In this document: piece after piece, positions 22,410 through 60,328 of the stretch | How positions within the stretch are numbered: the stretch's first letter is position 1 | Layout: every line of letters starts with the position of its first letter | Assembly (NCBI GenBank): GCA_964019135.1 | Contig: OZ025265.1 | Coordinates: forward strand, 2,232,496 to 2,296,495 | Direction: 5' to 3' | DNA length: 64,000 nt | Origin: Arenicola marina | Lineage: Eukaryota > Annelida > Polychaeta > Arenicolidae | Made by a program: the position numbers and the translations under genes | Notes under the pieces: model-generated | Seen by the model: only the letters and a program-made list of their open reading frames with translations | What the model was told of the DNA's origin: nothing | Databases searched by the model: none

Positions 22410-25400
22410 CCGGCCAGAGCCTATTCCGGCCAGAGCCCATCCCAGCCAGAGCCTATCTTGGCCAGAGCCTATCTCGGCCAGAGCCTATCCCGGCCAGAGC
22501 CTATCTTGGTCAGAGCCTGTCCCTGCCAGCGCCTATCCCGGCCAGAGCCTATCCCGGCCAGAGCCAATCCCGGCCAGAGCCTATCCCGCCCAGAGCCTAT
22601 TCCGGACAGAGCCTATCCCGGCCAGAGCCTATCCCGGCCAGAGCCTATCCCGGCCAGAGCCAATCCCGGCCAGAGCCTATCTCGGCCAGAGCCCATCCCG
22701 GCCAGAGCCTATCCCGGCCAGAGCCCATACCGGCCAGAGCCTATCCCGGCCAGAGCCTATCTCGGCCAGAGCCTATCCCGGCCAGAGCCTATCCCGGCCA
22801 GAGCCTATCCCGGCCAGAGCCCATCCAGGCCAGAGCCTATCCCGGCCAGAGCCTATTCCGGCCAGAGCCTATCTCGGCCAGAGCCTATCCCGGCCAGAGC
22901 CTATCCCGGCCAGAGCCTATCCCGGCCAGAGCCCATCCAGGCCAGAGCCTATCCCGGCCAGAGCCTATCCCGGCCAGAGCCCACCCCGGCCAGAGCCCAT
23001 CCCGGCCACAGCCTATCTCGGCCACAGCCTATCTCGGCCAGAGCCCATCCCGGACAGAGCCTATCCCGGCCACAGCCTATCCCGGCCATAGCCTATCCCG
23101 GCCAGAGCCTATCCCGGCCAGAGCCTATCCCGGCCAGAGCCTATCCCGACCAGAGCCTATCCCTGCCAGAGCCTATCCCGGCCAGAGCCCACCCCGGCCA
23201 GAGCCCATCCCGGCCAGAGCCTATCTCGGCCAGAGCCTATCTCGGCCAGAGCCTATTCCGGCCAGAGCCTATCTCGGCCAGAGCCCATCCCGGCCAGAGC
23301 CTGTCCCAGCCAGAGCCCATACCGGCCAGAGCCTATCCCGGCCAGAGCCTATCCCGGCCAGAGCCCATCCAGGCCAGAGCCTATCCCGGCCAGAGCCTAC
23401 CCCGGCCAGAGCCCATCCCGGCCACAGCCTATCTCGGCCAGAGCCTATCCCGGCCAGAGCCTTTCCCGGCCAGAGCCCACCTCGACCAGAGCCCATCCCG
23501 GCCACAGCCTATCTCGGCCACAGCCTATCTCGGCCAGAGCCCATCCCGGACAGAGCCTATCCCGGCCACAGCCTATCCCGGCCAGAGCCTATCCCGGCCA
23601 GAGCCTATCCCGGCCAGAGCCTATCCTGGCCAGAGCCTATCCCGACCAGAGCCTATCCCGGCCAGAGCCTATCCCGGCCAGAGCCCACCCCGGCCAGAGC
23701 CCATCCCGGCCAGAGCCTATCTCGGCCAGAGCCTATCTCGGCCAGAGCCCATCCCGGCCAGAGTCTGTCCCGGCCAGAGCCTATCCCGGCCAGAGCCCAT
23801 ACCGGCCAGAGCCTATCCCGGCCAGAGCCTATCTCGGCCAGAGCCCATCCCGGCTAGAGCCTATCCCGGCCAGAGCCTATCCCGGCCAGAGCCTATCCCG
23901 GCCAGAGACTATCCCGGCCAGAGCCTATCCCGGCCAGAGCCTATCCCGGCCAGAGCCTATTCCGGCCAGAGCCTTTCCCGGCCAGAGCCCACCTCGGCCA
24001 GAGCCCACCCTGGCCACAGCTTCTGTCGGCCAGAGCCTATCCCGGCCAGAGCCTATCCCGGCCAGAGCCTATCCCGGCCAGAGCCTATCCCGGCCGGAGC
24101 CTATTCCGGACAGAGCCTATGCCGGCCAGAGCCTATTCCGGCCAGAGCCTATCTCGGCCAGAGCCCATCCCGGCCAGAGCCTGTCCCAGCCAGAGCCCAT
24201 ACCGGCCAGAGCCTATCCCGGCCAGAGCCTATCCCGGCCAGAGACTATCCCGGCCGGAGCCTATTCCGGCCAGAGCCTGTCCCGGCCAGAGCCTATCCCG
24301 GCCAGAGCCTATCCCGGCCAGAGCCTATCCCGGCCAGAGCCTATCCCGGCCAGAGCCCATCCAGGCCAGAGCCTATCCCGGCCAGAGCCTATCCCGGCCA
24401 GAGCCCACCCCGGCCAGAGCCCATCCCGGCCACAGCCTATCTCGGCCACAGCCTATCTCGGCCAGAGCCCATCCCGGACAGAGCCTATCCCGGCCACAGC
24501 CTATCCCGGCCAGAGCCTATCCCGGCCAGAGCCTATCCCGGCCAGAGCCTATCCTGGCCAGAGCCTATCCCGACCAGAGCCTATCCCGGCCAGAGCCTAT
24601 CCCGGCCAGAGCCCACCCCGGCCAGAGCCCATCCCGGCCAGAGCCTATCTCGGCCAGAGCCTATCTCGGCCAGAGCCCATCCCGGCCAGAGTCTGTCCCG
24701 GCCAGAGCCTATCCCGGCCAGAGCCCATACCGGCCAGAGCCTATCCCGGCCAGAGCCTATCTCGGCCAGAGCCCATCCCGGCTAGAGCCTATCCCGGCCA
24801 GAGCCTATCCCGGCCAGAGCCTATCCCGGCCAGAGACTATCCCGGCCAGAGCCTATCCCGGCCAGAGACTATCCCGGTCAGAGCCTATCCCGGCCAGAGC
24901 CTATTCCGGCCAGAGCCTATCTCGGCCAGAGCCCATCCCGGCCAGAGCCTGTCCCAGCCAGAGCCCATACCGGCCACAGCCTATCCCGGCCAGAGACTAT
25001 CCCGGCCAGAGCCTATCCCGGCCAGAGACTATCCCGGTCAGAGCCTATCCCGGCCAGAGCCTATTCCGGCCAGAGCCTATCTCGGCCAGAGCCCATCCCG
25101 GCCAGAGCCTGTCCCAGCCAGAGCCCATACCGGCCAGAGCCTATCCCGGCCAGAGCCTATCCCGGCCAGGGCCTATCCCGGCCAGAGCCTATCTCGGCCA
25201 GAGCCCATCCCGGCCAGAGCCTGTCCCAGCCAGAGCCCATACCGGCCAGAGCCTATCCCGGCCAGAGCCTATCCCGGCCAGAGCCTATCTCGGCCAGAGC
25301 CTATCCCGGCCAGAGCCTGTCCCGGCCAGAGCCTATCCCGGCCAGAGCCTATCCCGGCCATAGACTATCCCGGCCAGAGCCTATCCCGGGCAGAGACTAT

Positions 25401-26692
25401 CCCGGTCAGAGCCTATCCCGGCCAGAGCCTATTCCGGCCAGAGCCTATCTCGGCCAAAGCCCATCCCGGCCAGAGCCTGTCCCAGCCAGAGCCCATACAG
25501 GCCAGAGCCTATCCCGGCCAGAGACTATCCCGGCCAGAGCCTATCCCGGCCAGAGACTATCCCGGTCAGAGCCTATCCCGGCCAGAGCCTATTCCGGCCA
25601 GAGCCTATCTCGGCCAGAGCCCATCATGGCCAGAGCCTGTCCCAGCCAGAGCCCATACCGGCCAGAGCCTATACCGGCCAGAGCTTATCCCGGTCAGAGC
25701 CTATCTCGGCCAGAGCCTATTCCGGCCAGAGCCTATCTCGGCCAGAGCCCATCCCGGCCAGAGCCTGTCCCAGCCAGAGCCCATACCGGCCAGAGCCTAT
25801 CCCGGCCAGAGCCTATCCCGGCCAGAGCCCATCCAGGCCAGAGCCTATCCCGGCCAGAGCCTACCCCGGCCAGAGCCCATCCCGGCCACAGCCTATCTCG
25901 GCCAGAGCCTATCCCGGCCAGAGCCTTTCCCGGCCAGAGCCCACCTCGGCCAGAGCCCACCCTGGCCACAGCTTATCTCGGCCAGAGCCCATCCCGGCCA
26001 GAGCCTGTCCCAGCCAGAGCCCATACCGGCCAGAGCCTATCCCGGCCAGAGCCTATCCCGGCCAGAGCCTATCCCGGCCGGAGCCTTTCCCGGCCAGAGC
26101 CCACCTCGGCCAGAGCCCACCCTGGCCACAGCTTATCTCGGCCAGAGCCTATCCCGGCCAGAGCCTATCGCGGCCAGAGCCTATCCCGGCCGGAGCCTAT
26201 TCCGGACAGAGCCTATGCCGGCCAGAGCCTATCTCGGCCAGAGCCTATCCCGGCCAGAGCCTATCCCGGCCAGAGCCTATCCCGGCCAGAGCCTATTCCG
26301 GCCAGAGCCTATCCCGGCCAGAGCCTCTTCCGGCCAGAGCCTGTCCCGGCCAGAGCCCATCCCGGCCAGAGCCCATCCCGGCCAGAGCCTCTTCCAGCCA
26401 GAGCCTATCCCGGCCAGAGCCTATCCCGGCCAGAGCCCATACCGGCCAGAGCCTATCCCGGCCAGAGCCTATCCCGGCCAGAGCCTATCCTGGCCAGAGA
26501 CTATCCCGGTCAGAGCCTCTTCCGGCCAGAGCCTATCCCGGCCAGAGCCTCTTCCGGCCAGAGCCTGTCCCGGCCAGAGACTATCCCGGCCAGAGCCTGT
26601 CCCGGCCAGAGCCTATCCCGGTCAGAGCCTCTTCCGGCCAGAGCCTGTCCCGGCCAGAGCCTGTCCCGGCCAGAGCCCATCCCAGCCAGAGG
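22410..26692. repeat. Minisatellite array, 16-bp unit, about 268 copies
   Basis: The period is 16 bp with consensus CCCGGCCAGAGCCTAT. Frequent variants are CTCGGCCAG, TTCCGGCCAG, GAGCCCAT, GAGCCTGT, GAGACTAT and GGCCACAG. Since 16 is not a multiple of 3 and the unit has no plus-strand stop, all frames stay open for long distances and encode a 16-residue Pro/Ser/Arg/Gln-rich cycle (for example 22458-24785). Variant units form higher-order blocks: the pattern around 23269-23505 recurs at 25733-25969, an offset of 2464 bp or exactly 154 units. The array ends cleanly at both sides. Confidence 0.97.
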
Positions 26693-30990: not shown

Positions 30991-31948
30991 AATCAATCGG
31001 TATGATAATGTCATTATATTGCAGAACTATCTCTGTTTAGCTTATGGTTCCACGGAGAGACAACTCCATCTCTATAACTGATACGCATTGGATAAACCTA
31101 CGCCACTGACCGAGTGTTGCGCAGCCGGCATATACAGTTGGGAACCCAAACGAATAACATTCTGAGCGACCAAAATTTCGCAGCATAGTGAGGATATCGT
31201 AGGGTAATAAAACGGCCCGTATAGATCTACGTAACAAATAGGATATTTGAATAGATAGCTTAAGAATAAGAGACGAAGACACTAAGATAGAGGCAGACTT
31301 AAAAGACATAAGAATAAAATACGCATGGGTTCTAGTCATGACCTAATAACCAGTAGATGGAAAAAGGGACAACAATCGACGGCTTCAACAATAACATTAA
31401 CAGGGATAGCACCTCCGGGTCTGGTCGCGTCGATTGGGATGTAGCGTATCGAATTTCGTAGACATGATCATAAACTTCGCCGCCGGACCAGTTATGATGT
31501 AAAAGTCTAACCTAGGACCACCGTTGGATTATACACACACACTGACACACGGACCCAGGGCTAAGTTAATATAGTCGGTCTGAACATAGAACACGATTTC
31601 GGTTACCCGATCGTGACAAATCATTGTATACTTGTTCTATCGCTAGGAGCCTTGTAACTTGCCCGCGCGTAGCGTGAAGCTTAACTTAATTAAGTAGCAA
31701 TAAAACCCACTGGAACATTTCCGAAGTATTCCTACCAAATATTATATCAGAGTTAGGTTCTAACGGAAGAAACAAATAGCCGACCCCCATAGTTGCATTG
31801 CAATTCAAGGAGATAAATCCTTGACAAACATATTTAACCAGGAAGAAGTAAATAAACCTATAGACAAGCCCTACATTTTTGTTGGTGTCTTGTGTTCGTT
31901 TCACGTGGGCATTCCCTATGCTACAGATTATCGTGTGAGTTTCGGTCT
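30991..31948. other. Intergenic sequence
   Basis: No supported gene or RNA. A frame on the minus strand at 31339-31037 (100 codons) has no recognisable domain. Confidence 0.4.
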
Positions 31949-32369
31949 GACAACGACAGTCGGATGATACCCCAAGATTAGCACGACCATACTACTCTTA
32001 CAATCTGATAAATATGACAATTTGCGATGCTATTCCACGGAAATGGCGGCCATTTTGGATTTTTGTCATTGAAATGGCGGCCATCTTGAATTTTTGTCAT
32101 TGACAACGACTGCCGGATGAGACCCAAAGATTAGCATGACCATACTACTCTTACAATCCGAGAAATATGGCACTTTGCGATGCTATTCCACGGCTATCTT
32201 GGATTTTTGTCATTCAAATGGCGGCCATCTTGGATTTTTGTCATTGACAACGGCACTCGGATGAGGCCCCAAGATTAGCACGACCATACTACTCTTACAA
32301 TCCGATAAATATGATACTTTGCGATGCTATTCCACGGAAATGGCGGCCATCTTGGATTTTTGTCATTTA
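31949..32369. repeat. Tandem repeat of about 150 bp, three copies, with nested GGCGGCCAT motifs
   Basis: Copies start at 31949, 32102 and 32246 (spacing 153 and 144 bp); the third is cut short. Shared blocks are AAGATTAGCACGACCATACT, CTCTTACAATC, TTTGCGATGCTATTCCACGG and GGATTTTTGTCATT. Inside each copy lies ATGGCGGCCATCTTGGA, which is duplicated in the first copy and truncated once in the second. Its reverse complement contains AAGATGGC, the core of a YY1 site. The copies are diverged by several percent, so this array is older than the homogeneous minisatellites. No protein is encoded. Confidence 0.85.
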
Positions 32370-34940: not shown

Positions 34941-35317
34941 GGGTGAACAGATTAGGAGGGTTAGGAGAGGGAAGCCCGTTCAGCGGGCATTTTGGCAGGG
35001 CTTTCGTTTCTTATGCATTGAAAGCAAATCTCCAATTGAAACATTTAGATGTCATCACCATCATGAATACAAAAAATGTCGCTTCACTGTGTAGGCAATT
35101 AAACCAATGCCTAAAAGCCTGTGTTGTAATACACAATGTAAGAAATATAACTGATAACTGATTGATCTATTAATGTACTTGGAATTTATTACCCTGTGAT
35201 ATCTCGTGTCGCGACAATGGCAAAAGGGCAAGGAAGAGAGGAGCCATGTCGTGGGGAGTAACCGCCTACGCTTTGCAAAGACAGAAATTGGATCTCCATC
35301 CTGCATATAAATCCATC
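34941..35317. other. Intergenic sequence before the 43-bp array
   Basis: No gene or repeat is supported; composition becomes AT-richer after about 35000. Confidence 0.4.
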
Positions 35318-38300
35318 TAGGGATTCGAACCCCGCATCAGCCGCTGGGGCTGGCCTAGCACAGCACACTGAACCCCGCACCAGCCGCTGGGGCTGGCCTA
35401 ACACAGCACACTGAACCCCGCACCAGCCGCTGGGGCTGGCCTAGCAGAGCACACTGAACCCCGCACCAGCCGCTGGGGCTGGCCTAGCAGAGCACACTGA
35501 ACCCCGCACCAGCCGCTGGGGCTGGCCTAACACAGCACACTGAACCCCGCACCAGCCGCTGGGGCTGGCCTAGCACAGCACACTGAACCCCGCACCAGCC
35601 GCTGGGGCTGGCCTAGCACAGCACACTGAACCCCGCACCAGCCGCTGGGGCTGGCCTAGCAGAGCACACTGAAACCCGCACCAGCCGCTGCGGCTAGCCT
35701 AGCAGAGCACACTGAACCCCGCACCAGCCGCTGGGGCTGGCCTAGCACAGCACACTGAACCCCGCACCAGCCGCAGGGGCTGGCCTAGCACAGCACACTG
35801 AACCCCGCACCAGCCGCTGGGGCTGGCCTAACACAGCACACTGAACCCCGCACCAGCCGCTGGGGCTGGCCTAGCACAGCACACTGAACATCGCACCAGC
35901 CGCTGGGGCTGGCCTAGCACAGCACACTGAACCCCGCACCAGCCGCTGGGGCTGGCCTAACACAGCACACTGAACCCCGCACCAGCCGCTGGGGCTGGCC
36001 TAGCAGAGCACACTGAACCCCGCACCAGCCGCTGGGGTTGGCCTAACACAGCACACTGAACCCCGCACCAGCCGCTGGGGCTGGCCTAGCACAGCACACT
36101 GAACCCCGCACCAGCCGCTGGGGCTGGCCTAACACAGCACACTGAACCCCGCACCAGCCGCTGGGGCTGGCCTAGCACAGCACACTGAACCCCGCACCAG
36201 CCGCTGGGGCTGGCCTAGCACAGCACACTGAACCCCGCACCAGCCGCTGGGGCTGGCCTAACAGAGCACACTGAACCACGCACCAGCCGCTGGGGCTGGC
36301 CTAACAGAGCACACTGAACCCCGCACCAGCCGCTGGGGCTGGCCTAACACAGCACACTGAACCCCGCACCAGCCGCTGGGGTTGGCTTAGCACAGCACAC
36401 TGAACCCCGCACCAGCCGCTAGGGCTGGCCTAACACAGCACACTGAACCCCGCACCAGCCGCTGGGGCTGGCCTAACACAGCACACTGAACCCCGCACCA
36501 GCCGCTGGGGCTGGCCTAGCACAGCACACTGAAACCCGCACCAGCCGCTGCGGCTGGCCTAGCAGAGCACACTGTACCCCGCACCAGCCGCTGGGGCTGG
36601 CCTAGCACAGCACACTGAACCCCGCACCAGCCGCTGGGGCTGGCCTAGCAGAGCACACTGTACCCCGCACCAGCCAATGGGGTTGGCCTAACACAGCACA
36701 CTGAACCCCGCACCAGCCGCCGGGGCTGGCCTAGCACAGCACACTGAACCCCGCACCAGCCGCTGGGGCTGGCCTAGCACAGCACACTGAACCCCGCACC
36801 AGCCGCTGGGGCTGGCCTAGCACAGCACACTGAAACCCGCACCAGCCGCTGCGGCTAGCCTAGCACAGCACACTGAACCCCGCACCAGCCGCTGGGGCTG
36901 GCCTAGCACAGCACACTGAACCCCGCACCAGCCGCTGGAGCTGGCCTAACACAGCACACTGAACCCCGCACCAGCCGCTGGGGCTGGCCTAACACAGCAC
37001 ACTGAACCCCGCACCAGCCGCTGGGGCTGGCCTAGCACAGCACACTGAACCCCGCACCAGCCGCTGGGGTTGGCCTAACACAGCACACTGAACCCCGCAC
37101 CAGCCGCTGGGGCTGGCCTAGCACAGCACACTGAACCCCGCACCAGCCGCTGGGGCTGGCCTAGCACAGCACACTGAACCCCGCACCAGCCGCTGGGGCT
37201 GGCCTAGCAGAGCACACTGAAACCCGCACCAGCCGCTGCGGCTAGCCTAGCAGAGCACACTGAACACCGCACCAGCCGCTGGGGCTGGCCTAGCACAGCA
37301 CACTGAACCCCGCACCAGCCGCAGGGGCTGGCCTAGCACAGCACACTGAACCCCGCACCAGCCGCTGGGGCTGGCCTAACACAGCACACTGAACCCCGCA
37401 CCAGCCGCTGGGGCTGGCCTAGCACAGCACACTGAACATCGCACCAGCCGCTGGGGCTGGCCTAGCACAGCACACTGAACCCCGCACCAGCCGCTGGGGC
37501 TGGCCTAACACAGCACACTGAACCCCGCACCAGCCGCTGGGGCTGGCCTAGCAGAGCACACTGAACCCCGCACCAGCCGCTGGGGTTGGCCTAACACAGC
37601 ACACTGAACCCCGCACCAGTCGCTAGGGCTGGCCTAGCACAGCACACTGAACCCCGCACCAGCCGCTGGGGCTGGCCTAACGCAGCACACTGAGCCCCGC
37701 ACCAGCCGCTGGGGCTGACCTAACACAGCACACTGAACCCCGCACCAGCCGCTGGGGTTGGCCTAACACAGCACACTGAACCCCGCACCAGCCACTGGGG
37801 CTGGCCTAGCAGAGCACACTGAAACCCGCACCAGCCGCTGCGGCTAGCCTAGCACAGCACACTGAACCCCGCACCAGCCGCTTGGGCTGGCCTAGCACAG
37901 CACACTGAACCCCGCACCAGCCGCTGGGGCTGGCCTAGCAGAGCATACTGAAACCCGCACCAGCCGCTGCGGCTGGCCTAGCAGAGCACACTGAACCCCG
38001 CACCAGCCGCTGGGGCTGGCCTAACACAGCACACTGAACCCCGCACCAGCCGCTGGGGCTGGCCTAGCACAGCACACTGAACCCCGCACCAGCCGCTGGG
38101 GCTGGCCTAGCAGAGCACACTGAACCCCGCACCAGCCGCTGGGGCTGGCCTAGCAGAGCACACTGAACCCCGCACCAGCCGCTGGGGCTGGCCTAACACA
38201 GCACACTGAACCCCGCACCAGCCGCTGGGGCTGGCCTAACACAGCACACTGAACCCCGCACCAGCCGCTGGGGCTGGCCTAGCAGAGCACACTGAAACCC

Positions 38301-40572
38301 GCACCAGCCGCTGCGGCTAGCCTAGCAGAGCACACTGAACCCCGCACCAGCCGCTGGGGCTGGCCTAACACAGCACACTGAACCCCGCACCAGCCGCCGG
38401 GGCTGGCCTAGCACAGCACACTGAACCCCGCACCAGCCGCTGGGGCTGGCCTAACACAGCACACTGAACCCCGCACCAGCCGCTGGGGCTGGCCTAGCAC
38501 AGCACACGGAACTTCGCACCAGCCGCTGGGGCTGGCCTAGCACAGCACACTGAACCCCGCACCAGCCGCTGGGGCTGGCCTAACACAGCACACTGAACCC
38601 CGCACCAGCCGCTGGGGTTGGCCTAGCAGAGCACACTGAACCCCGCACCAGCCGCTGGGGCTGGCCTAACACAGCACACTGAACCCCGCACCAGCCGCTG
38701 GGGTTGGCCTAACACAGCACACTGAACCCCGCACCAGCCGCTGGGGCTGGCCTAGCACAGCACACTGAACATCGCACCAGCCGCTGGGGCTGGCCTAGCA
38801 CAGCACACTGAACCCCGCACCAGCCGCTGGGGCTGGCCTAGCACAGCACACTGAACCCCGCACCAGCCGCTGGGGCTGGCCTAGCAGAGCACACTGAACC
38901 CCGCACCAGCCGCTGCGGCTGGCCTAGCACAGCACACTGAACCCCGCACCAGCCGCTGGGGCTGGCCTAGCACAGCACACTGAACCCCGCACCAGCCGCT
39001 AGGGCTGGCCTAACACAGCACACTGAACCCCGCACCAGCCGCTGGGGTTGGCCTAACACAGCACACTGAACCCCGCACCAGCCGCTGGGGCTGGCCTAGC
39101 ACAGCACACTGAACCCCGCACCAGCCGCTGGGGCTGGCCTAGCACAGCACACTGAACCCCGCACCAGCCGCTGGGGCTGGCCTAACACAGCACACTGAAC
39201 CCCGCACCAGTCGCTAGGGCTGGCCTAGCACAGCACACTGAACCCCGCACCAGCCGCTGGGGCTGGCCTAACACAGCACACTGAGCCCCGCACCAGCCGC
39301 TGGGGCTGACCTAACACAGCACACTGAACCCCGCACCAGCCGCTGGGGCTGGCCTAGCACAGCACACTGGACCACGCACCAGCCGCTAGGGCTGGCCTAG
39401 CAGAGCACACTGAACCCCGCACCAGCCGCTGGGGCTGGCCTAACACAGCACACTGAACCCCGCACCAGCCGCTGGGGCTGGCCTAGCACAGCACACTGAA
39501 CCCCGCCCCAGCCGCTGGGGCTGGCCTAGCACAGCACACTGAACCCCGCACCAGCCGCTGGGGTTGGCCTAACACAGCACACTGAACCCCGCACCAGCCG
39601 CTGGGGCTGGCCTAACACAGCACACTGAACCCCGCACCAGCCGCTGGGGCTGGTCTAACACAGCACACTGAACCCCGCACCAGCCGCTGGGGCTGGCCTA
39701 GCACAGCACACTGAACCCCGCACCAGCCGCTGGGGCTGGCCTAACACAGCACACTGAACCCCGCACCAGCCGCTGGGGCTGGCCTAACACAGCACACTGA
39801 ACCCCGCACCAGCCGCCGCTGGGGCTGGCCTAGCACAGCACACTGAACCCCGCACCAGCCGCTGGGGCTGGCCTAACGCAGCACACTGAACCCCGCACCA
39901 GCCGCTGGGGCTGGCCTAGCACAGCACATTGAACCCCGCACCAGCCGCTGGGGCTGGCCTAGCACAGCACACTGAACCCCGCACCAGCCGCTGGGGCTGG
40001 CCTAACACAGCACACTGAACCCCGCACCAGCCGCTGGGGCTGGCCTAGCACAGCACACTGAATCCCGCACCAGCCGCTGGGGCTGGCCTAGCAGAGCACA
40101 CTGAACCCCGCACCAGCCGCTGGGGCTGGCCTAACACAGCACACTGAACCCCGCACCAGCCGCTGGGGCTGGCCTAGCACAGCACACTGAATCCCGCACC
40201 AGCCGCTGGGGCTGGCCTAGCACAGCACACTGAACCCCGCACCAGCCGCTGGGGCTGGCCTAACACAGCACACTGAACCCCGCACCAGCCGCTGGGGCTG
40301 GCCTAGCACAGCACACTGAATCCCGCACCAGCCGCTGGGGCTGGCCTAGCACAGCACACTGAACCCCGCACCAGCCGCTGGGGCTGGCCTAACACAGCAC
40401 ACTGAACCCCGCACCAGCCGCTGGGGCTGGCCTAGCACAGCACACTGAACCCCGCACCAGCCGCTGGGGCTGGCCTAACACAGCACACTGAATCCCGCAC
40501 CAGCCGCTGGGGCTGGCCTAGCACAGCACACTGAATCCCGCACCAGCCGCTGGGGCTGGCCTAGCAGAGCAC
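35318..40572 (-). repeat. Minisatellite array, 43-bp unit, about 122 copies, apparently SINE-derived
   Basis: The period is 43 bp, measured between successive CCGCTGG motifs. On the plus strand units contain GAACCCCGCACCAGCCGC, then TGGGGCTGGCCTAGC and ACAGCACACT. On the minus strand the first copy (35321-35331) reads GGTTCGAATCC, a perfect polymerase III B box. Each unit there contains CCAGC-CCCAGCG-GCTGG, a 5-bp stem with a 7-base loop like a tRNA anticodon arm, and GGTTCAGTGTGCT, which resembles a D-arm/A-box segment. The unit therefore corresponds to the A-box to B-box interval of a tRNA-like sequence. Variants such as CTGCGGCTAGCC and CCGCAGGGGC recur at a 1548-bp offset (36 units), showing block duplication. 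Confidence 0.93.
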
Positions 40573-40574
40573 TC

Positions 40575-41230
40575 TTGGCAGCAGCCCAAGTCGCTACATG
40601 GGCCCTGGTAGTCATGCTAGAAGAGTTGTGAAATTATGTAAAGACTCGTGTGAATGCTACCGTGGCCAATCTCGGATTCTGTAACTTACAGACAAAGTGG
40701 CAGCAGTTTTCAGCATTTTGTAATTCTTTTTATGATGCTTGCTTATGGGACTTTCACCACCTTTCTGCACAGAAGGTTTATACCGCCTGGCGTAAAGCGG
40801 TCAGAAAGATGTTTAATTTGCCCCCACTTACCGATGGCCAAATGTTACCTCTAATGGCGGATTGTCTCCCAGTGCAGTTAGAATTATCTTGTCGATTGTC
40901 TTATTTTAGTTCTGGCTGCCTTGGGGCCTTTGATGAAGTGGTGAGACTTTCATTGCATTTAGCCCTCCAAGGAAGTGATTCTAATTTGTCCAAATCTCCA
41001 AATCTCACAATAGCAAACCAAAGGGTTGATTCATCATGTGTTCTTTAAATGTTAATTTTAAACCATGTTTACACCGTGTTTATGTTTCTAGTATGGATGA
41101 AAATTTTGTACGTGAAACTTCGTTCATCAAAGAAGTTTTAAATGATTTATATAACCCCGCCTTGTTAAACAAGCGAGAACTAGGCGATATCCTTAGCCAC
41201 CTTTGTACAGGTGCTCATTGTATCCTTTAG
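40575..41230 (+). mobile_element. LINE fragment, reverse transcriptase C-terminal tail
   Basis: A frame from about 40650 to 41048 encodes WQQFSAFCNSFYDACLWDF, then AWRKAVRKMFNLPPLTDGQM and LPLMADCLPVQLEL. This is the segment that follows the reverse transcriptase domain in CR1/L2/Jockey-like LINEs (pattern LF..YC.S.YG..LWD, then WRKA.R....LP..T...LL...D..P). From about 41036 the tail continues in another frame with FVRETSFIKEVLNDL and ending ILSHLCTGAH, typical of the extreme C-terminus near an LCT motif. So there is at least one frameshift near 41036, and a stop just upstream at 40629. The copy is strongly 5'-truncated, starting where the 43-bp array stops. It has no endonuclease or catalytic domain and is dead. 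Confidence 0.75.
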
Positions 41231-43649: not shown

Positions 43650-44516
43650 TATTGACTGGTTCCCATACCATTGACTGGTTCCCAGATTACTGACTGATTC
43701 CCATCCTATTGACTGATCTCCGTATTACTGATTGGTTCCCATATTACTGACTGGTTCCCATATTACAGACTGGTTCCCATATTGCTGACTGGTTTCCATA
43801 TTACCGAATGGTTTCCATCCTAATGAGTGATTTCCGTATTACTGACTGGTGCCCATATTACTGACTGGTTCCCATGCTACAAACTGGTTCCCATATTACT
43901 TACTGGTTCCCATTTTGCTGACTGAATCCCATATTACTGACTGGTTTCCATATTACAGACTGGTTTCCATAATCCTGACTGGTTCCCATATTACTGATTG
44001 TTCTCATGCCACAAACTGGTTTCCATATTACTTACTGGTTCCCATATTGCTGACTGGTTTCCATATTACTGACTGGTTTCCATATTACTGACTGGTTTCC
44101 ATATTACTGACTGGTTTCCATATTACTGACTGGTTCCTATATTGCTGTCTGGTTCCCATATTACTGACTGGTTCCCACATTACTGACTGGTTCCCATATT
44201 ACTGACTGGTTCCCATATTACTTACTGGTTCACATATTACTGACTGGTTTCCGTATTACTGACTGGTTCCCATATTACTGACTGGTGCCCATATTACTGA
44301 CTGGTTCCCATATTACTGACTGGTTCCTATATTACTGACTGGTTTCCATGTTACTGACTGGTTCCTATATTGCTGACTGGTTCCCATATTACTGACTGGT
44401 TCCCATATTACTGACTGGTTCCCATATTACTGACTGGTTCCCATATTACTGACTGGTTCCCATATTACTGACTGGTTCCCATATTACTGACTGGTTCCTA
44501 TATTAGGGACTGGTAC
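43650..44516. repeat. Minisatellite array, 19-bp unit, about 46 copies
   Basis: The unit is CTGACTGGTTCCCATATTA, 19 bp, measured between successive CCCATATTA motifs. Variation is mainly CCCATATTA/TCCATATTA/CCTATATTG/CCCATATTG and TTACTGAC/TTACTTAC. Copies are most diverged at the left end (43650-44000) and almost identical at 44380-44500. Since 19 is not a multiple of 3 the open frames that run through it are by-products. Confidence 0.95.
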
Positions 44517-45779
44517 CCTTTCCATATGTGTATCCCATAATAATGCCGGCCTAATGACGGCCTAATGACGGGTCATTTCCACAACAGCAAGCCATGAAGC
44601 CTATAGCAGCCAGCGACACTCGACCCGACCACGGGCCTTGGAACACAGCGCAGTCATAACGCATTCATAATTCATCGTCATCATGCAGCCCTATCCGCGA
44701 GGCTGGTCGCGCCGCCTGGCGAATAGGGCGATAGTACGTGAGGGTTTCTGGGAAGGGGTCAAGTGGTGAGTGTGAAGGGGGCTCGTTCCGATCCCATTAC
44801 AAGCACATAGATATGTTTCTAATTGACTGCCTGGCTCCTAGCGAATGCTTCCTGTCAGTTTTTATCCTAGCTGGGAACCAGCCGGTCAAGCAAGTTGAAT
44901 GTATGCTGTGAGGAACCGTAGGCCGGTTCCCAGCCAAGTTCGTATCATGCCCATTCTCCCGGTAGAGGCCGCTCGCTCCTCACCTTGTCGCCCCAGTGCT
45001 ATCAGTCGCCAGCAGTTCACATCCCCGTTCTCAAGTATACGTATATTTATAAACACATTTACGTGTTTTAAAAATGGATGTTAAGTCAAAATAATGATCC
45101 GGCTAAACCACGGGTGTGCATCCCATGTGCAGATTACATTCACATAAGTATAAATTTTATATCTGTATAAAACAAAATAAACTTTATATGAGCTGAGTGA
45201 ATGTTGTGGCAGCGTTGCGAATTGGAAGTGTGGCGGCTGTGTCGGGTGTTGTCACCAGCGATCACCAACTACTGAAATGTTGTTGATGAAGAATTTCAGG
45301 AAAAAAACCTTCCCATGTTCGTACAGCATGAGCGAAAAACAACTAAGCTATATCAAAATACGACACGGTTAGAGGTACTCATGCAGCAGTTCACCACCAA
45401 CACTGTGATTTTTTCAAATTTATTGGAGAAATCTCGCGAGATTTGGCTTTAGGAACCGCTGATTAAGCGGCATCCTATCTGTACCCTTCCCCTTTACCAC
45501 CCTACCCCCCCCCCCCCCCCCCCCGAAGTGTCTCCTTTCATGTCGCCAGGAGGAAAGGTCACGTGCGTACGGCCCCCTTGATCCTCTCGGTGGCGCCTTC
45601 CCCGCGCCGCGTCAAAGGCAAGCGACATACTAATTACCGAAGTAAGAATGGAGGGGATGACTCGGCGCGACCCTGGCCTCCCGCCCCGCTCACGGTCACC
45701 GGCACAGGGGTATGTGGGGGCCGGGCGTGGAGGGGTGGGGGGGGGGGGGCGCTGAGGCTGAGGGTTGCGGTTGGGGCTG
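44517..45779. other. Intergenic sequence with a 20-base C run
   Basis: A 20-base C homopolymer lies at 45505-45524. A short direct duplication, GGCCTAATGAC, sits at about 44548-44570. The part from 45560 to 45720 is CpG-rich, but no gene start is supported. Confidence 0.4.
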
Positions 45780-46092: not shown

Positions 46093-49000
46093 TGGGGCTG
46101 GAGGTCTGAAGCTGTGGGTTGGGGTGGGGCTGGTGGTGAGAGCGGGAGTGGGCCTGGGGTTGAGACTGGGGTGTGGGTTGGGGCGGGGCTGGTGGTGAGA
46201 GCGGAAGTGGGCCTGGGGTTGAGACTGGGGTGTGGGTTGGGGTGGGGCTGGTGGTGAGAGCGGGAGTGGGCCTGGGGTTGAGACTGGGGTGTGGGTTGGG
46301 GCGGGGCTGGTGGTGAGAGCGGGAGCGGGCCTGGGGTTGAGACTGGGGTGTGGGTTAAGGTGGGGCTGGTGGTGAGAGCGGGAGTGGGCCTGGGGTTGAG
46401 ACTGGGGTGTGGGTTGGGGTGGGGCTGGTGGTGAGAGCGGGGGTGGGCCTGGGGTTGAGACTAGGGTGTGGGTTGGGGTGGGGCTGGTGGTGAGAGCGGG
46501 GGTGGGCCTGGGGTTGAGACTGGGGTGTGGGTTGGGGTGGGGCTGGTGGTGAGAGCGGGAGTGGGCCTGGGGTTGAGACTGGGGTGTGGGTTGGGGTGGG
46601 ATTGGTGGCGAGAGCGAGGGTGGGCCTGGGGTTGAGACTGGGGTGTGGGTTGGGGTAGGGCTGGTGGTGAGAGCGGGAGTGGGCCTGGGGTTGAGACTGG
46701 GGTGCGGGTTGGGGTGGGGCTGGTGGTGAGAGCGGGGGTGGGCCTGGGGTTGAGACTGGGGTGTGGGTTGGGGTGGGGCGGGTGGTGAGAGCGGGAGTGG
46801 GTCTGGGGTTGAGACTGGGGTGTGGGTTGGGGTGGGACTGGTGGTGAGAGTGGGACTGGTGGTGAGAGCGGGAGTAGGCCTGGGGTTGAGACTGGGGTGT
46901 GGGTTCGGGTAGGGCTGGTGGTGAGAGCGGGAGTGGGCCTGGGGTTGAGACTGGGGTGTGGGTTGGGGTGAGACTGGTGGTGAGAGCGCGGGTGGGCCTG
47001 GGGTTGAGACTGGGGTGTGGGTTGGGGTGGGGCTGGTGGTGAGAGCGGGAGTGGGCCTGGGGTTGAGACTGTGGTGTGGGTTGGGGTGGGGCTGGTGGTG
47101 AGAGCGGGGGTGGGCCTGGGGTTGAGACTGTGGTGTGGGTTGGGGTGGGGCTGGTGGTGAGAGCGGGAGTGGGCCTGGGGTTGAGACTGGGATGTGGGTT
47201 GGGGTGGGACTGGTGGTGAGAGCGGGAGTGGGCCTGGGGTTGAGACTGGGGTGTGGGTTGGGGTGGGGCTGGTGGTGAGAGCGGGAGTGGGCCTGGGGTT
47301 GAGACTGGGGTGTGGGTTGGGGTGGGACTGGTGGTGAGAGCGGGAGTGGGCCTGGAGTTGAGACTGGGGTGTGGGTTGGGGTGGGGCTGGTGGTGAGAGC
47401 GGGAGTGGGCCTGGGGTTGAGACTGGGGTGTGGGTTGGGGTAGGGCTGGTGGTGAGAGCGGGTGTGGGCCTGGGGTTGAGACTGGGGTGTGAGTTGGGGT
47501 GGGGCTGGTGGTGATAGCGGGAGTGGGCCTGGGGTTGAGACTGGGGTGTGGGTTGGGAGAGGGCTGGTGGTGAGAGCGAGAGTGGGCCTGGGGTTGAGAC
47601 TGGGCTGTGGGTTGGGGTAGGGCTGGTGGTGAGAGCGGGAGTGGGCCTGGGGTCGAGACTGGTGTGTGGGTTGGGGTGGGACTGGTGGTGAGAGCGGGAG
47701 TGGGCCTGGGGCTGAGACTGGGGTGTGGGTTGGGGGAGGGCTGGTGGTGAGAGCGGGGGTGGGCCTGGGGTTGAGACTGGGGTGTGGGTTGGGGGAGGGC
47801 TGGTGGTGAGAGCGGGGGTGGGCCTGGGGTTGAGACTGGGGTGTGGGTTGGGGGAGGGCTGGTGGTGAGAGCGGTAGTGGGACTGGGGTTGAGACTGGGG
47901 TGTGGGTTGGGGCAGGGCTGGTGGTGAGAGCGGGAGTGGGCCTGGCGTTGAGACTGGGGTGTGGGTTGGGGTAGGGCTGGTGGTGGTGCGAGCGGGAGTG
48001 GACCTGGGGTTGAGACTGGGATGTGAGTTGGAGTGGGGCTGGTGGTGAGAGCGGGAGTGGGCCTGGGGTTGAGACTGGGGTGTGGTTTGGGGTGGGACTG
48101 GTGGTGAGAGCGGGAGTGGGCCTGCGGTTGAGACTGGGGTGTGGGTTAGGGAGGGACTGGTGGTGAGAGCGGGACAGGGCCTAGGGTTGAGACTGGGGTG
48201 TTGGTTGGGGTGGGGCTGGAGGTGAGAGCGGGAGTGGGCCTGGGGTTGAGACTGGGGTGTGGGTTCGGGTGGGGCTGGTGGTGAGAGCGGGAGTGGGCCT
48301 GGGGTTGAGACTGGGGTGTGGGTTGGGGTGGGACTGGTGGTGAGAGCGGGAGTGGGCCTGGGGCTGAGACTGGGGTGTGGGTTGGGGTGGGGCTGGTGGT
48401 GAGAGCGGGAGTGGGCCTGGGGTTGAGACTGGGGTGTGGGTTGGGGTGGGGCTGGTGGTAAGAGCGGGAGTGGGTCTGGGGTTGAGACTAGGGTGTGGGT
48501 TGGGGTGGGGTTGGTGGTGAGAGCGGGAGTGGGCCTGGGGTTGACTGGGATGTGGGTTGGGGTGGGGCTGGTGGTGAGAGCGGGAGTGGGCCTGGGGTTG
48601 AGACTGGGGTGTGGGTTGGGGTGGGACTGGTGGTGAGAGCGGGAGTGGGCCTGGGGCTGAGACTGGGGTGTGGGTTGGGGTGGGGCTGGTGGTGAGAGCG
48701 TGAGTGGGCCTGGGGTTAAGACTGGGGTGTGGGTTGGGGTGGGGCTGGTGGTGAGAGCGGGAGTGGGTCTGGGGTTGAGACTAGGGTGTGGGTTGGGGTG
48801 GGGCTGGTGGTGAGAGCGGGAGTGGGCCTGGGGTTGAGACTGGGATGGGGGTTGGGGTGGGGCTGGTGGTGAGAGCGGGAGTGGGCCTGGGGTTGAGACT
48901 GGGGTGTGGGTTGGGGTGGGGCTGGTGGTGAGAGCGGGAGTGGGCCTGGGGTTGAGAGTGGGGTGTGGGTTGGGGTGGGGCTGGTGGTGAGAGCGGGAGT

Positions 49001-52000
49001 GGGCCTGGGGTTGAGACTGGGGTGTGGGTTGGGGTAGGGCTGGTGGTGAGAGCGGGAGTGGGCCTGGGGTTGAGACTGGGGTGTGGGTTGGGGGAGGGCT
49101 GGTGGTGAGAGCGGGAGTGGGCCTGGGGTGTGGGTTGGGGTGGGACTGGTGGTGAGAGCGGGAGTGGGCCTGGAGTTGAGACTGGGGTGTGGGTTGGGGT
49201 GGGGCTGGTGGTGAGAGCGGGAGTGGGCCTGGGGTTGAGACTGGGGTGTGGGTTGGGGTAGGGCTGGTGGTGAGAGCGGGTGTGGGCCTGGGGTTGAGAC
49301 TGGGGTGTGGGTTGGGGTGGGGCTGGTGGTGATAGCGGGAGTGGGCCTGGGGTTGAGACTGGGGTGTGGGTTGGGGGAGGGCTGGTGGTGAGAGCGAGAG
49401 TGGGCCTGGAGTTGAGACTGGGGTGTGGGTTGGGGTAGGGCTGGTGGTGAGAGCGGGAGTGGGCCTGGGGTTGAGACTGGTGTGTGGGTTGGGGTGGGAC
49501 TGGTGGTGAGAGCGGGAGTGGGCCTGGGGTTGAGACTGGGGTGTGGGTTGGGGTAGGGCTGGTGGTGAGAGCGGGAGTGGGCCTGGGGTTGAGACTGGGG
49601 TGTGGGTTGGGGTAGGGCTGGTGGTGAGAGCGGGAGTGGGCCTGGGGTTGAGACTGGGGTGTGGGTTGGGGGAGGGCTGGTGGTGAGAGCGGGAGTGGGC
49701 CTGGGGTGTGGGTTGGGGTGGGACTGGTGGTGAGAGCGGGAGTGGGCCTGGAGTTGAGACTGGGGTGTGGGTTGGGGTGGGGCTGGTGGTGAGAGCGGGA
49801 GTGGGCCTGGGGTTGAGACTGGGGTGTGGGTTGGGGTAGGGCTGGTGGTGAGAGCGGGTGTGGGCCTGGGGTTGAGACTGGGGTGTGGGTTGGGGTGGGG
49901 CTGGTGGTGATAGCGGGAGTGGGCCTGGGGTTGAGACTGGGGTGTGGGTTGGGGGAGGGCTGGTGGTGAGAGCGAGAGTGGGCCTGGAGTTGAGACTGGG
50001 GTGTGGGTTGGGGTAGGGCTGGTGGTGAGAGCGGGAGTGGGCCTGGGGTTGAGACTGGTGTGTGGGTTGGGGTGGGACTGGTGGTGAGAGCGGGAGTGGG
50101 CCTGGGGTTGAGACTGGGGTGTGGGTTGGGGGAGGGCTGGTGGTGATAGCGGGAGTGGGCCTGGGGTTGAGACTGGGGTGTGGGTTGGGGTGGGGCTGGT
50201 GGTGATAGCGGGAGTGGGCCTGGGGTTGAGACTGGGGTGTGGGTTGGGGGAGGGCTGGTGGTGAGAGCGAGAGTGGGCCTGGAGTTGAGACTGGGGTGTG
50301 GGTTGGGGTAGGGCTGGTGGTGAGAGCGGGAGTGGGCCTGGGGTTGAGACTGGTGTGTGGGTTGGGGTGGGACTGGTGGTGATAGCGGGAGTGGGCCTGG
50401 GGTTGAGACTGGGGTGTGGGTTGGGGGAGGGCTGGTGGTGAGAGCGGGAGTGGGCCTGGGGTTGAGACTGGGGTGTGGGTTGGGGTGGGGCTGGTGGTGA
50501 GAGCGGGAGTGGGCCTGGAGTTGAGACTGGGGTGTGGGTTGGGGTGGGGCTGGTGGTGAGAGCGGGAGTGGGCCTGGGGTTGAGACTGGGGTGTGGGTTG
50601 GGGTAGGGCTGGTGGTGAGAGCGGGTGTGGGCCTGGGGTTGAGACTGGGGTGTGGGTTGGGGTGGGGCTGGTGGTGATAGCGGGAGTGGGCCTGGGGTTG
50701 AGACTGGGGTGTGGGTTGGGGGAGGGCTGGTGGTGAGAGCGGGAGTGGGCCTGGGGTTGAGACTGGGGTGTGGGTTGGGGTGGGGCTGGTGGTGAGAGCG
50801 GGAGTGGGCCTGGGGTTGAGACTGGTGTGTGGGTTGGGGTGGGACTGGTGGTGAGAGCGGGAGTGGGCCTGGCGTTGAGACTGGGGTGTGGGTTGGGGTG
50901 GGGCTGGTGGTGAGAGCGGGAGTGGGCCTGGGGTTGAGACTGGGGTGTGGGTTGGGGGAGGGCTGGTGGTGAGAGCGGGAGTGGGCCTGGGGTTGAGACT
51001 GGGGTGTGGGTTGGGGTGGGACTGGTGGTGAGAGCGGGAGTGGGCCTGGAGTTGAGACTGGGGTGTGGGTTGGGGTGGGGCTGGTGGTGAGAGCGGGAGT
51101 GGGCCTGGGGTTGAGACTGGGGTGTGGGTTGGGGTAGGGCTGGTGGTGAGAGCGGGTGTGGGCCTGGGGTTGAGACTGGGGTGTGGGTTGGGGTGGGGCT
51201 GGTGGTGATAGCGGGAGTGGGCCTGGGGTTGAGACTGGGGTGTGGGTTGGGGGAGGGCTGGTGGTGAGAGCGAAAGTGGGCCTGGAGTTGAGACTGGGGT
51301 GTGGGTTGGGGTAGGGCTGGTGGTGAGAGCGGGAGTGGGCCTGGGGTTGAGACTGGTGTGTGGGTTGGGGTGGGACTGGTGGTGAGAGCGGGAGTGGGCC
51401 TGGGGCTGAGACTGGGGTGTGGGTTGGGGGAGGGCTGGTGGTGAGAGCGGGGGTGGGCCTGGGGTTGAGACTGGGGTGTGGGTTGGGGGAGGGCTGGTGG
51501 TGAGAGCGGGAGCGGGCCTGGGGTTGAGACTGGGGTGTGGGTTGGGGTAGGGCTGGTGGTGAGAGCGGGTGTGGGCCTGGCGTTGAGACTGGGGTGTGGG
51601 TTCGGGTGGGGCTGGTGGTGAGAGCGGGAGTGGGCCTGGGGTTGAGACTGGGGTGTGGGTTGGGGTGGGACTGGTGGTGAGAGCGGGAGTGGGCCTGGGG
51701 TTGAGACTGGGGTGTGGGTTGGGGTGGGGCTGGTGGTGAGAGCGGGAGTGGGCCTGGGGTTGAGACTGGGGTGTGGGTTGGGGGAGGGCTGGTGGTGAGA
51801 GCGGGAGTGGGCCTGGCGTTGAGACTGGGGTGTGGGTTGGGGTGGGGCTGGTGGTGAGAGCGGGAGTGGGCCTGGGGTTGAGACTGGGGTGTGGGTTGGG
51901 GGAGGGCTGGTGGTGAGAGCGGTAGTGGGACTGGGGTTGAGACTGGGGTGTGGGTTGGGGTAGGGCTGGTGGTGAGAGCGGGAGTGGGCCTGGGGTTGAT

Positions 52001-53850
52001 ACTGGGGTGTGGGTTGGGGTGGGGCTGGTGGTGAGAGCGGGAGTGGGCCTGGCGTTGAGACTGGGGTGTGGGTTGGGGTGGGGCTGGTGGTGGTGCGAGC
52101 GGGAGTGGACCTGGGGTTGAGACTGGGATGTGAGTTGGAGTGGGGCTGGTGGTGAGAGCGGGAGTGGGCCTGGGGTTGAGACTGGGGTGTGGTTTGGGGT
52201 GGGACTGGTGGTCAGAGCGGGAGTGGGCCTGGGGTTGAGACTGGGGTGTGGGTTGGGGTAGGGCTGGTGGTGAGAGCGGGAGTGGGCCTGGTGTTGAGAC
52301 TGGGGTGTGGGTTGGGTTGGGGCTGGTGGTGAGAGCGGGAGTGGGCCTGGGGTTGAGACTGGGGTGTGGGTTGGGGTGGGCTGGTGGTGAAACCGGGGGT
52401 GGGCCTGGGGTTGAGACTGGGGTGTGGGTTGGAGTGGGGCTGGTGGTGAGAGCGGGAGTGGGCCTGCGGTTGAGACTGGGGTGTGGGTTAGGGAGGGACT
52501 GGTGGTGAGAGCGGGTCAGGGCCTAGGGTTGAGACTGGGGTGTTGGTTGGGGTGGGGCTGGAGGTGAGAGCGGGAGTGGGCCTGGGGTTGAGACTGGGGT
52601 GTGGGTTGGGGTGGGACTGGTGGTGAGAGCGGGAGTGGGCCTGGGGTTGAGACTGGGGTGTTGGTTGGGGGAGGGCTGGTGGTGAGAGCGGGAGGGGGCC
52701 TGGGGTTGAGACTGGGGTGTGGGTTGGGGTGGGGCTGGTGGTGAGAGCGGGAGTGGGCCTGGGGTTGAGACTGGGATGGGGGTTGGGGTGGGGCTGGTGG
52801 TGAGAGCGGGAGCGGGCCTGGGGTTGAGACTGGGGTGTGGGTTGGGGTGGGGCTGGTGGTGAGAGCGGGAGTGGGCCTGGGGCTGAGACTGGGGTGCGGG
52901 TTGGGGTGGGGCTGGTGGTGAGAGCGGGAGTGGGCCTGGGGTTGAGACTGGGGTGTGGGTTGGGGTGGGGCTGGTGGTGAGAGCGGGAGTGGGCCTGGGG
53001 TTGAGACTGGGGTGTGGGTTGGGGTGGGGTTGGTGGTGAGAGCGGGAGTGGGCCTAGGGTTGAGACTGGGATGTGGGTTGGGGTGTGGCTGGTGGTGAGA
53101 GCGGGAGTGGGCCTGGGGTTGAGACTGGGGTGTGGGTTGGGGTGGGACTGGTGGTGAGAGCGGGAGTGGGCCTGGGGCTGAGACTGGGGTGTGGGTTGGG
53201 GTGGGGCTGGTGGTGAGAGCGGGAGTGGGCCTGGGGTTGAGACTGGGGTGTGGGTTGGGGTGGGGCTGGTGGTGAGAGCGGGAGTGGGTCTGGGATTGAG
53301 ACTAGGGTGTGGGTTGGGGTGGGGCTGGTGGTGAGAGCGGGAGTGGGCCTGGGGTTGAGACTGGGATGGGGGTTGGGGTGGGGCTGGTGGTGAGAGCGGG
53401 AGCGGGCCTGGGGTTGAGACTGGGGTGTGGGTTGGGGTGGGGCTGGTGGTGAGAGCGGGAGTGGGCCTGGGGTTGAGACTGGGGTGTGGGTTGGGGTGGG
53501 GCTGGTGGTGAGAGCGGGAGTGGGCCTGGGGTTGAGACTGGGGTGTGAGTTGGGGTGGGGCTGGCGGTGAGAGCGGGAGTGGGCCTGGGGTTGAGACTGG
53601 GGTGTGGGTTGGGGTGGGGCTGGTGGTGAGAGCGGGAGTGGGCCTGGGGTTGAAACTGGGGTTGAGACTGGGGTGTGAGTTGGGGTGGGGCTGGTGGTGA
53701 GAGCGGGAGTGGGCCTGGTGTTGATACTGGGGTGTGGGTTGGGGTGGGGCTGGTGGTGAGAGCGGGAGTGGGCCTGGGGTCGAGACTGGGGTGTGGGTTG
53801 GGGGGGGGGGGGGCTGGTGGTGGGAGCGGGAGTGGGCCTGGGGTTGAGAG
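46093..53850 (+). repeat. Minisatellite array, 59-bp G-rich unit (B-type), about 131 copies
   Basis: The period is 59 bp, measured between successive GAGAGCGGGAGTGGGCC motifs. Units contain GGGGCTGGTGGTGAGAGCGG, GGGCCTGGGGTTGAGACTGG and GGTGTGGGTTGGGGTG. Each unit carries at least five runs of three or more G on the plus strand, so every unit can form a G-quadruplex. A 12-bp deleted unit form recurs at 49121 and 49699, and a GATAGCGGG form at 49331 and 49909, both 578 bp apart. This shows a ten-unit block duplication (nine full units plus one of 47 bp). Long open frames on both strands follow from composition and a period not divisible by 3. Confidence 0.96.
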
Positions 53851-56800: not shown

Positions 56801-57360
56801 GGCTGGGGATGAGAGTGGGGATGGTGGTGGTGGGGATGGTGGTGGGGCTGGGGATGAGAGTGGGCATGGTGGTGGTGATGGTGGTGGTGGGGTTGGGGAT
56901 GATAGTGGGGATGTTGGTGGTGGGGGTGGTGGTGGGGCTGGGGATGAGAGTGGGGATGGTGGTGGTGGGGGTGGTGGTGGGGCTGGGGATGAGAGTGGGG
57001 ATGGTGGTGGTGGTGGTTGTGGTGGGGCTGGGGATGAGAGTGGGGATGGTGGTGGTGGGGGTGGTGGTGGGGCTGGGGATGAGAGTGGGGATGGTGGTGG
57101 TGAGGGTGGTGGTGGGGCTGGGGATGAGAGTGGGCATGGTGGTGGTGATGGTGGTGGTGGGGTTGGGGATGAGAGTGGGGATGGTGGTGGTGGGGGTGGT
57201 GGTGGGGCTGGGGATGAGAGTGGGGATGGTGGTGGTGGGGGTGGTGGTGGGGCTGAGGTTGAGAGTGGGGATGGTGGTGGTGATGGTGGTGGTGGGGTTG
57301 GGGGTGAGAGTGGGGATGGTGGTGGTGGCGGTGGCGGTGATGGTGGTGGTGGTGGGGCTG
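53851..57360 (+). repeat. Minisatellite array, 45-bp G-rich unit (A-type), about 78 copies
   Basis: The unit contains GGGGATGGTGGTGGTGGGGG, then TGGTGGTGGGGCTGGGG and ATGAGAGT or TTGAGAGT. The period is 45 bp, with copies in which GGGGGTGGT is replaced by TGATGGTGGT and a few length variants. As 45 is a multiple of 3, several frames are open. One minus-strand frame (57137-52488) runs through this array and on into the 59-bp array, and encodes a Thr/Pro-rich 15-residue cycle resembling PTTTIPTLIPSPTTT. I read this as a consequence of the repeat, not as a gene. The plus strand has extreme G over C bias. Confidence 0.95.
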
Positions 57361-60062: not shown

Positions 60063-60328
60063 CACACATGGTTGATCTGAGTCACTCCATGTTTGATCTG
60101 AATCAGTCCATGTTTGATCTGAGTCACTCCATGTTTGATCGGAGTCACTCCATGTTTGATCTGAGTCATTCCATGTTTGATCTGAGTCACTCCATGTTTG
60201 ACCTGAGTCACTCCATGTTTGATCTGAGTCACTCCATGTTTGATCTGAGTCACTCCATGTTTGACCTGAGTCACTCCATGTTTGATCTGAGTCACTCCAT
60301 GTTTGACCTGAATCAGTCAGACAACGTT
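60063..60328 (+). repeat. 21-bp derivative array with AP-1-type sites, about 12 copies
   Basis: The 24-bp unit changes here to a 21-bp unit GAGTCACTCCATGTTTGATC plus T (three bases fewer and an A-to-G change). Each standard unit contains TGAGTCA, the consensus AP-1/TRE site, at 60078, 60120, 60162, 60183, 60204, 60225, 60246, 60267 and 60288. The two remaining register positions hold TGAATCA (60099) and GGAGTCA (60141). All eleven lie exactly 21 bp apart. The last unit returns to the 24-bp form. Confidence 0.9.

Follow-up and report, generated by a model that had tools for sequence, protein, structure and literature searches.

The 43-bp Array and the SINE Copy Around It

The analyzed window, a stretch of 64,000 nucleotides from contig OZ025265.1 of Arenicola marina, contains a 5.2-kb tandem array, in which a 43-base unit is repeated about 122 times. 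The array is located at 2.27 Mb of the 33.0-Mb contig. It is embedded in a single old copy of a common short interspersed element (SINE) and is built from a repeated piece of the head of this element. Tandem Repeats Finder (TRF) reported a period of 43 bp, 121.9 copies, and 95% matches, and stepping through the array unit by unit yielded 122 units, of which 120 are 43 bp long and the other two 46 and 42 bp. Thus, the array of about 122 tandem copies proposed in an earlier reading of the letters alone (herein referred to as the sequence-only reading) is real. In total, 37 distinct unit sequences were found, the two commonest being seen 29 and 28 times. The mean identity between units is 0.951 at a distance of one unit and 0.953 at a distance of 60 units, which fits array-wide homogenization. 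Block structure within the array is suggestive only: the longest identical run comprises seven units, at a spacing of 36 units, and 500 shuffles gave a mean of 3.84 and a maximum of 8.

On the low-coordinate side, the last unit of the array continues on the minus strand into GGTTCGAATCC, the perfect B box already noted in the sequence-only reading. This is the only exact B box on either strand within positions 35318–40600. The array passes here colinearly into the 3' part of the SINE (Table 1). The local alignment of consensus positions 46–258 with the low-side flank, last unit included, has a score of 183. The SINE body alone scored 127 in this flank, with a shuffle maximum of 25 (0 of 200 shuffles), and the resident body is 25% diverged from the family consensus. 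The window unit scored 71 against the SINE consensus, with a maximum of 21 in 60 shuffles. On the high-coordinate side, a decayed remnant of the SINE head lies in register with the array edge. Anchored at this edge, it has 17 identities in 25 positions, a value equalled by only one of 58,550 other 25-base non-array stretches of the window.

Table 1. Coordinates of the SINE-derived array, the resident SINE copy, and other tandem arrays in the window
Feature	Position	Strand	Basis
Array of 43-bp units, 121.9 copies, each corresponding to SINE consensus 46–88 (AGTGTGCTGTGCTAGGCCAGCCCCAGCGGCTGGTGCGGGGTTC in SINE sense)	35327..40572	-	TRF, alignment, unit walk
Perfect B box GGTTCGAATCC closing the last unit	35321..35331	-	Letters and scan of both strands
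3' part of resident SINE: rest of B box, body, tail ending in ...AATAGATCAATC (consensus about 89–258)	35160..35326	-	Local alignment
Decayed SINE head remnant (consensus 24–48), in register with array edge; A box no longer recognizable	40573..40597	-	Anchored identity
Other tandem array	5597–8503		
Other tandem array	14073–17660		
Other tandem array	18459–20028		
Other tandem array	22410–26691		
Other tandem array	43653–44518		
Other tandem array	46113–53854		
Other tandem array	53859–57339		
Other tandem array	58744–60323		
Other tandem array	60549–61134		
Other tandem array	63679–64000		

The Parent SINE Family and the Position of the Unit

The parent SINE was searched for in the whole genome (867 Mb, 762 contigs). 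A pattern joining the unit end to the B box, with at most three mismatches, gave 1,130 matches (558 and 572 on the two strands) and 94 in the reversed control (1 and 93); part of the 1,130 matches fall inside arrays, including arrays of 57-bp units. A 55-base pattern specific for a single unit was found 41 times in the genome and never in the control, and therefore the SINE is present at loci without the expansion. The search proposed by the sequence-only reading, for a SINE holding this segment in unexpanded form, thus yielded a SINE with a single unit that is tRNA-like by its boxes, and the B box at the array edge belongs to the resident copy of this SINE. The consensus, 258 bases long and finished by hand, was built from the 21 of 23 aligned loci that had a usable B box. 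It carries a 5' A box (TGGCCTAGTGG, positions 13–23), a B box (positions 84–94), and a common body. The boxes stand in the order A then B near the 5' end, with a long spacing of 71 bases from start to start. Several SINE copies end in ATCAATC-like tails. The predicted RNA fold of the head consensus is strong (-53.7 kcal/mol, z -3.68, 1 of 200 shuffles).

In SINE sense, the unit corresponds to positions 46–88 of the consensus. It begins with the 3' strand of an anticodon-like arm and ends midway through the B box, splitting this box in half and leaving the A box outside. Accordingly, the proposal that the satellite was made from the A-to-B interval of a tRNA-like SINE holds for the SINE origin, the array lying inside one copy, and fails for the extent of the unit. 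The hairpin previously taken for an anticodon arm, CCAGC-CCCAGCG-GCTGG, is present in the letters, and its identity as such was ruled out, together with the A-to-B identity of the unit, by aligning the unit to the consensus. By our reading of the consensus, the anticodon-like stem-loop would instead be located at about positions 27–52, upstream of the unit. The RNA of the unit is predicted to form a 7-bp stem with a 5-base loop; single units fold no better than shuffled sequences (59 of 200 shuffles did as well as this unit, and 24 of 200 in a second case). The A-box-like segment GGTTCAGTGTGCT is the join of two units and is absent from the unexpanded consensus.

Two further tRNA-like sequences were observed. 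Copies at L017, L018, L021, L023, L030, and L031 belong to a second SINE family, which combines another tRNA-like head with the same kind of body and 3' part. A 54-bp array at L050:2150–2630 has a unit holding TGGTGTAGTGGTTAGCGCACTAG, an A-box-like tRNA 5' half from another source.

The Same Duplication at Other Loci

The 43-bp duplication was read at 15 loci: the window, L009, L010, L011, L056, L057, L069, L070, L072, L073 with L074 (counted as one, the stretch between them being unread), L075, L076, L082 (44 bp), L084, and L085. The number of units ranges from two in L069, a clean two-unit SINE copy, to 122 in the window. The pattern for the 43-bp join, with at most three mismatches, gave 1,785 matches in the genome and none in the control; the 100 matches listed all belong to large arrays. 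The SINE body adjoins the array at all 15 loci, beating 200 of 200 shuffles at each. The SINE head precedes the array, again beating 200 of 200 shuffles, at six of the 10 testable loci (L009, L011, L057, L072, L074, and L084). Twelve of the 15 loci are located more than 5 Mb from a contig end; these are distances to contig ends and not to mapped telomeres.

Flanks taken 300–1,500 bp out from eight array loci gave five local matches of 56–311 bp. These were read as dispersed repeats, and segmental duplication of the array loci was rejected.

These data also bear on the reading in which the array is unrelated to the SINE, its B box and flank resembling the element by chance or the SINE having landed next to a satellite already there. 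In its favor, unrelated minisatellites abound in the genome, and the other arrays of the window lack SINE likeness. Against it stand the score of the unit against the SINE consensus, the colinear 3' continuation into the SINE, and the presence of the same segment, in arrays or as a dimer, inside SINE copies at 14 other loci. Since the SINE co-occurs at every one of the 15 loci, this reading is excluded in practice.

Variants private to one locus are common to internal units and the end units read. Such variants are CCCCAGCGGCTG in the first and last units of the window array, AAGCCGCC in the first and last units of L056, AGCAGCC in the first and last units of L084, and GCACCGC in the last unit only of L082. 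This is as expected if each array amplified a local sequence.

Other Unit Types From the Same SINE

Units of several other types were found to derive from the same SINE. Arrays or tandems of 57 bp are present in L052 and L053, and a different 57-bp unit, around the A box, in L078. Units of 41–42 bp were found in L074 and L083, with a different one in L086, and longer units in L068 (89 bp) and L067 (99 bp). Units of 38 and 48 bp around the A box were aligned at C2, C12, and C19 and, for C13, are present among the matches listed. The body of the SINE also gave rise to units, of 73 and 81 bp (L054 and C1). Another junction type recurs as dimers at L077, L079, and L081.

Two of these arrays have a structure of their own. 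L074 (C8:22.337 Mb) is a composite array, in which 41–42-bp units ending in TTATTGCCC pass into the standard 43-bp units; the flank of its resident SINE carries the same TATTGCCCAGTG, which suggests that the 41–42-bp type arose in place. At C1 of G000 (about 75,351,678–75,373,809), matches to the body of the same SINE follow each other at a spacing of 81 bp over at least 22 kb, and some blocks of units seem to be repeated in the same order among the matches listed.

The head was suspected to be a duplication hot spot, partly because of its strong fold. This candidate was dropped, since tandem pairs were more numerous for a body motif (417, control 0) than for the A-box motif (161, control 0), and nothing marks the promoter region as special. 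These counts are not rates, because the gap ranges differ slightly (57–87 and 60–90) and, for either motif, most of the matches listed come from a small number of big arrays.

Junctions and Routes of Amplification

The sequence-only reading explained the 43-bp period by slippage or unequal exchange at a GGTTC shared by the A-box-like and B-box segments. This shared motif is not present in the parent SINE, and slippage at it was rejected because the unexpanded consensus reads TTGTCGAG at that place. At offset 43 the consensus matches itself only by GT (positions 42–43 with 85–86), and a longer match, TCGA, exists at offset 44. The join of the window array, GGTTC-AGTG, requires no match, and the join of L056, GGTCGAGTG, is what the GT match would yield. 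By reading of the letters, GGTCCAGTG predominates among the joins at 11 of the 15 loci.

The anatomy of the locus is that of a homogenized array inside a SINE, and the following course of events is proposed. A tRNA-headed SINE would have inserted here long ago. The junctions and the dimer point to a subsequent duplication of a 43-bp stretch of its head, by a replication or repair error needing almost no homology, which may have taken place at this locus or in a source copy that was later retroposed. Slippage, unequal exchange, and gene conversion would then have expanded the tandem pair to about 122 copies and kept these copies about 95% alike. The resulting array would have no dedicated function, and neither polymerase III initiation nor binding of TFIIIC would be expected from its units. 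By either route of duplication, the array is very probably a SINE-derived satellite without a dedicated function. Most likely, it arose from the instability of the genome, as a by-product and not as a regulatory device.

Several results weigh against this interpretation. The head remnant of the window is weak, and in an unanchored 60-base local alignment its score was equalled by 13 of 200 shuffles; since this test is not significant, the high side is described as decayed, with the A box gone. The head test failed also at L056 (12 of 200 shuffles) and L010 (88 of 200), and at L069, the last of the testable loci, one shuffle reached the observed score. End units with changes unshared by the rest of the array were found in L057 (first unit) and L085 (last unit). 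Of the features of a tRNA-derived SINE, an ordered A and B box near the 5' end was found and a recognizable tRNA fold or model match was not: Rfam gave no tRNA match up to E = 1 for eight SINE-bearing loci, and ARAGORN called no tRNA in the SINE consensus. Because of this, "tRNA-like" here refers solely to the presence and order of the A and B boxes. A 43-bp period shared by 15 loci, despite the longer match at offset 44, would be unexpected if the arrays had been born independently. Finally, we infer the absence of a function from the letters of the array.

Two main routes are left: a separate error-prone birth of each array, or an early two-unit SINE that was retroposed and expanded. The private variants of end and internal units fit both. 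In the second route, the two-unit SINE would stem from one founding duplication, be dispersed by retroposition, and then undergo expansion at some of its new loci. This route is compatible with a satellite born from a SINE and is considered somewhat less likely than not. It would account for the same breakpoints at 15 loci (period 43, or 44 in L082 via an extra G), for the predominance of the GGTCCAGTG join, for the clean dimer of L069, and for the recurrence of the other junction type as dimers. In addition, after correction for age, 11 array-bearing SINE bodies are slightly closer to each other than by chance (0.022 of 5,000 permutations). However, uncorrected bodies are not closer (0.362 within the group vs. 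0.339 to 25 monomers; permutation 0.895), the seven tested bodies with the GGTCC join show no such closeness after age correction either (0.53), and no site is fixed differently between the array-bearing and monomer groups. These tests dropped five of 48 bodies as too short; three of the five (L070, L073, and L075) come from loci with 43-bp arrays or from parts of such loci. Two-unit copies also look scarce. A pattern expected to match once per array found the GGTC join in four of 11 matches, which belong to the arrays L057 and L070, the dimer L069, and L071, without a clear second unit. A search with a two-unit SINE covered 40 of its 4,657 candidates, too few for a count of dimers, and several of the apparent dimers among them had other junctions.

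A further idea, which we consider improbable, is that of a roaming satellite using SINEs as landing pads. Array DNA, from extrachromosomal circles or broken ends, would invade other SINE heads via the 43-bp homology. This would give the same unit and the same join in SINE copies whose bodies form no single clear subfamily.

Polymerase III Boxes in the Array

The sequence-only reading also suggested that the array could hold over a hundred partial polymerase III promoters or bind TFIIIC as an insulator-like block. Such a device would consist of repeated promoter fragments that recruit TFIIIC and serve as an insulator or extra-TFIIIC block. The parent SINE has both boxes, and binding of TFIIIC to SINEs is reported (PMC3744447). 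Moreover, the plus strand of 35318–40600 contains 24 exact matches to a loose A-box pattern (196 with one substitution), 24 being also the number of units, of 120, with C as the ninth base. This antisense match is intact in the family consensus and is therefore predicted to occur in a larger number of units in other arrays.

On the other side, no exact A box in SINE sense was found within 35318–40600 (16 matches with one substitution), and the plus strand of this region contains no exact B box. The single exact B box in these 5.3 kb is the one at the array edge, whereas an insulator block would have repeated intact B boxes. Each unit cuts the B box, and at the unit join the pattern GGTTCRANNCC is missed at three specified bases, as read from the letters. 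Among 14 representative units (13 from the head and one from the body), none holds both boxes, five hold the A box alone, and two the B box alone. Because the units have half a B box and no SINE-sense A box, initiation by polymerase III or binding of TFIIIC is not expected from them. The letters thus lend no support to a hundred partial promoters, and a role as a TFIIIC-bound block appears very unlikely.

An exact B box followed by an exact A box within 8–38 bases was found at only two places genome-wide. This rarity could reflect selection, as a lead linked to the landing-pad idea: arrays may persist only if no unit keeps both polymerase III boxes. It is only a lead, because most units are too short for both.

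Relation to Known SINE-Derived Satellites

SINE-derived satellites (sSats) have been described in squamate reptiles as sSat1–3 (PMC10702118). The array of A. marina has the features of an sSat: its unit is part of a SINE in the same genome, and its head-to-tail array exceeds four units (121.9). The terminal units run into the rest of the SINE, clearly at the 3' end and in decayed form at the 5' end, where the anchored test supports the continuation and the unanchored one does not. As described there for squamates, the tandem units are cut from a tRNA-related SINE, with terminal units running into the remainder of the element, copy numbers from a few to hundreds, and several unit variants per SINE family. 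Squamate units are about 70–290 nt long, whereas units of 38–57 bp are common here, along with units of 73, 81, 89, and 99 bp. Long squamate arrays are said there to favor subtelomeres; here, 12 of the 15 loci are more than 5 Mb away from a contig end. Finally, the squamate hosts are reptiles and the present host is an invertebrate; PMC10702118 calls the restriction of such satellites to squamates uncertain. In keeping with an invertebrate host, the mitochondrial contig is read with the invertebrate code (AGR = Ser, AAA = Lys), and its genes follow each other as nad2-cox1-cox2.

Other cases are summarized in the review PMC9659126, including a mouse B1-derived variable number tandem repeat family (Bois 1998) and Alu-derived human minisatellites (Armour 1989; Ahmed and Liang 2012). 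These, too, are minisatellites born inside SINE copies. The table of that review lists a very short expanded motif for B1 and an involvement of A-rich parts for some Alu minisatellites; in contrast, a non-simple 43-bp piece of the head is amplified here at several loci. Amphibian tandem repeats with tRNA-related sequence, namely Xenopus OAX/satellite I and Hydromantes Hy/polIII, are likewise reported in PMC10702118. For these repeats no parent SINE has been confirmed, according to that account, whereas the array described here shares its genome with its parent SINE.

In the open-licence papers searched, the term "SINE-derived satellite" was found in the squamate paper (PMC10702118) and in a 2025 review (PMC12692304), and an invertebrate case may well have been published elsewhere. 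The apparently new elements are an invertebrate host, the variety of unit types drawn from a single SINE family, and the formation of arrays from the body in addition to the head. This indicates that SINE-derived satellites occur outside squamates, in an invertebrate host. In this genome, dimers exist side by side with short and long arrays, in several unit types that all derive from one SINE family, and thus the step from mobile element to satellite is countable in a single chromosome-scale assembly.

Tandem-Array Background of the Window

Arrays of at least 200 bp occupy 52% of the window, and 13.8% of 37 SINE neighborhoods (113,400 bases; array loci L014 and L032 excluded). Besides the 43-bp array, the window has 14 array regions of this size, none of them with SINE similarity beyond shuffles. 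A many-copy SINE among the sources of minisatellites is expected in a genome that builds them from many sequences.

Two other features of the window were observed. At 31948–32367, a 144-bp repeat that carries the motif AAATGGCGGCCATCTTGGATTTTTGTCATT is present in tandem copies. A 138-codon open stretch on the plus strand (40632–41048), beside the SINE head remnant, resembles what we take to be the C-terminal end of a long interspersed element (LINE) protein.

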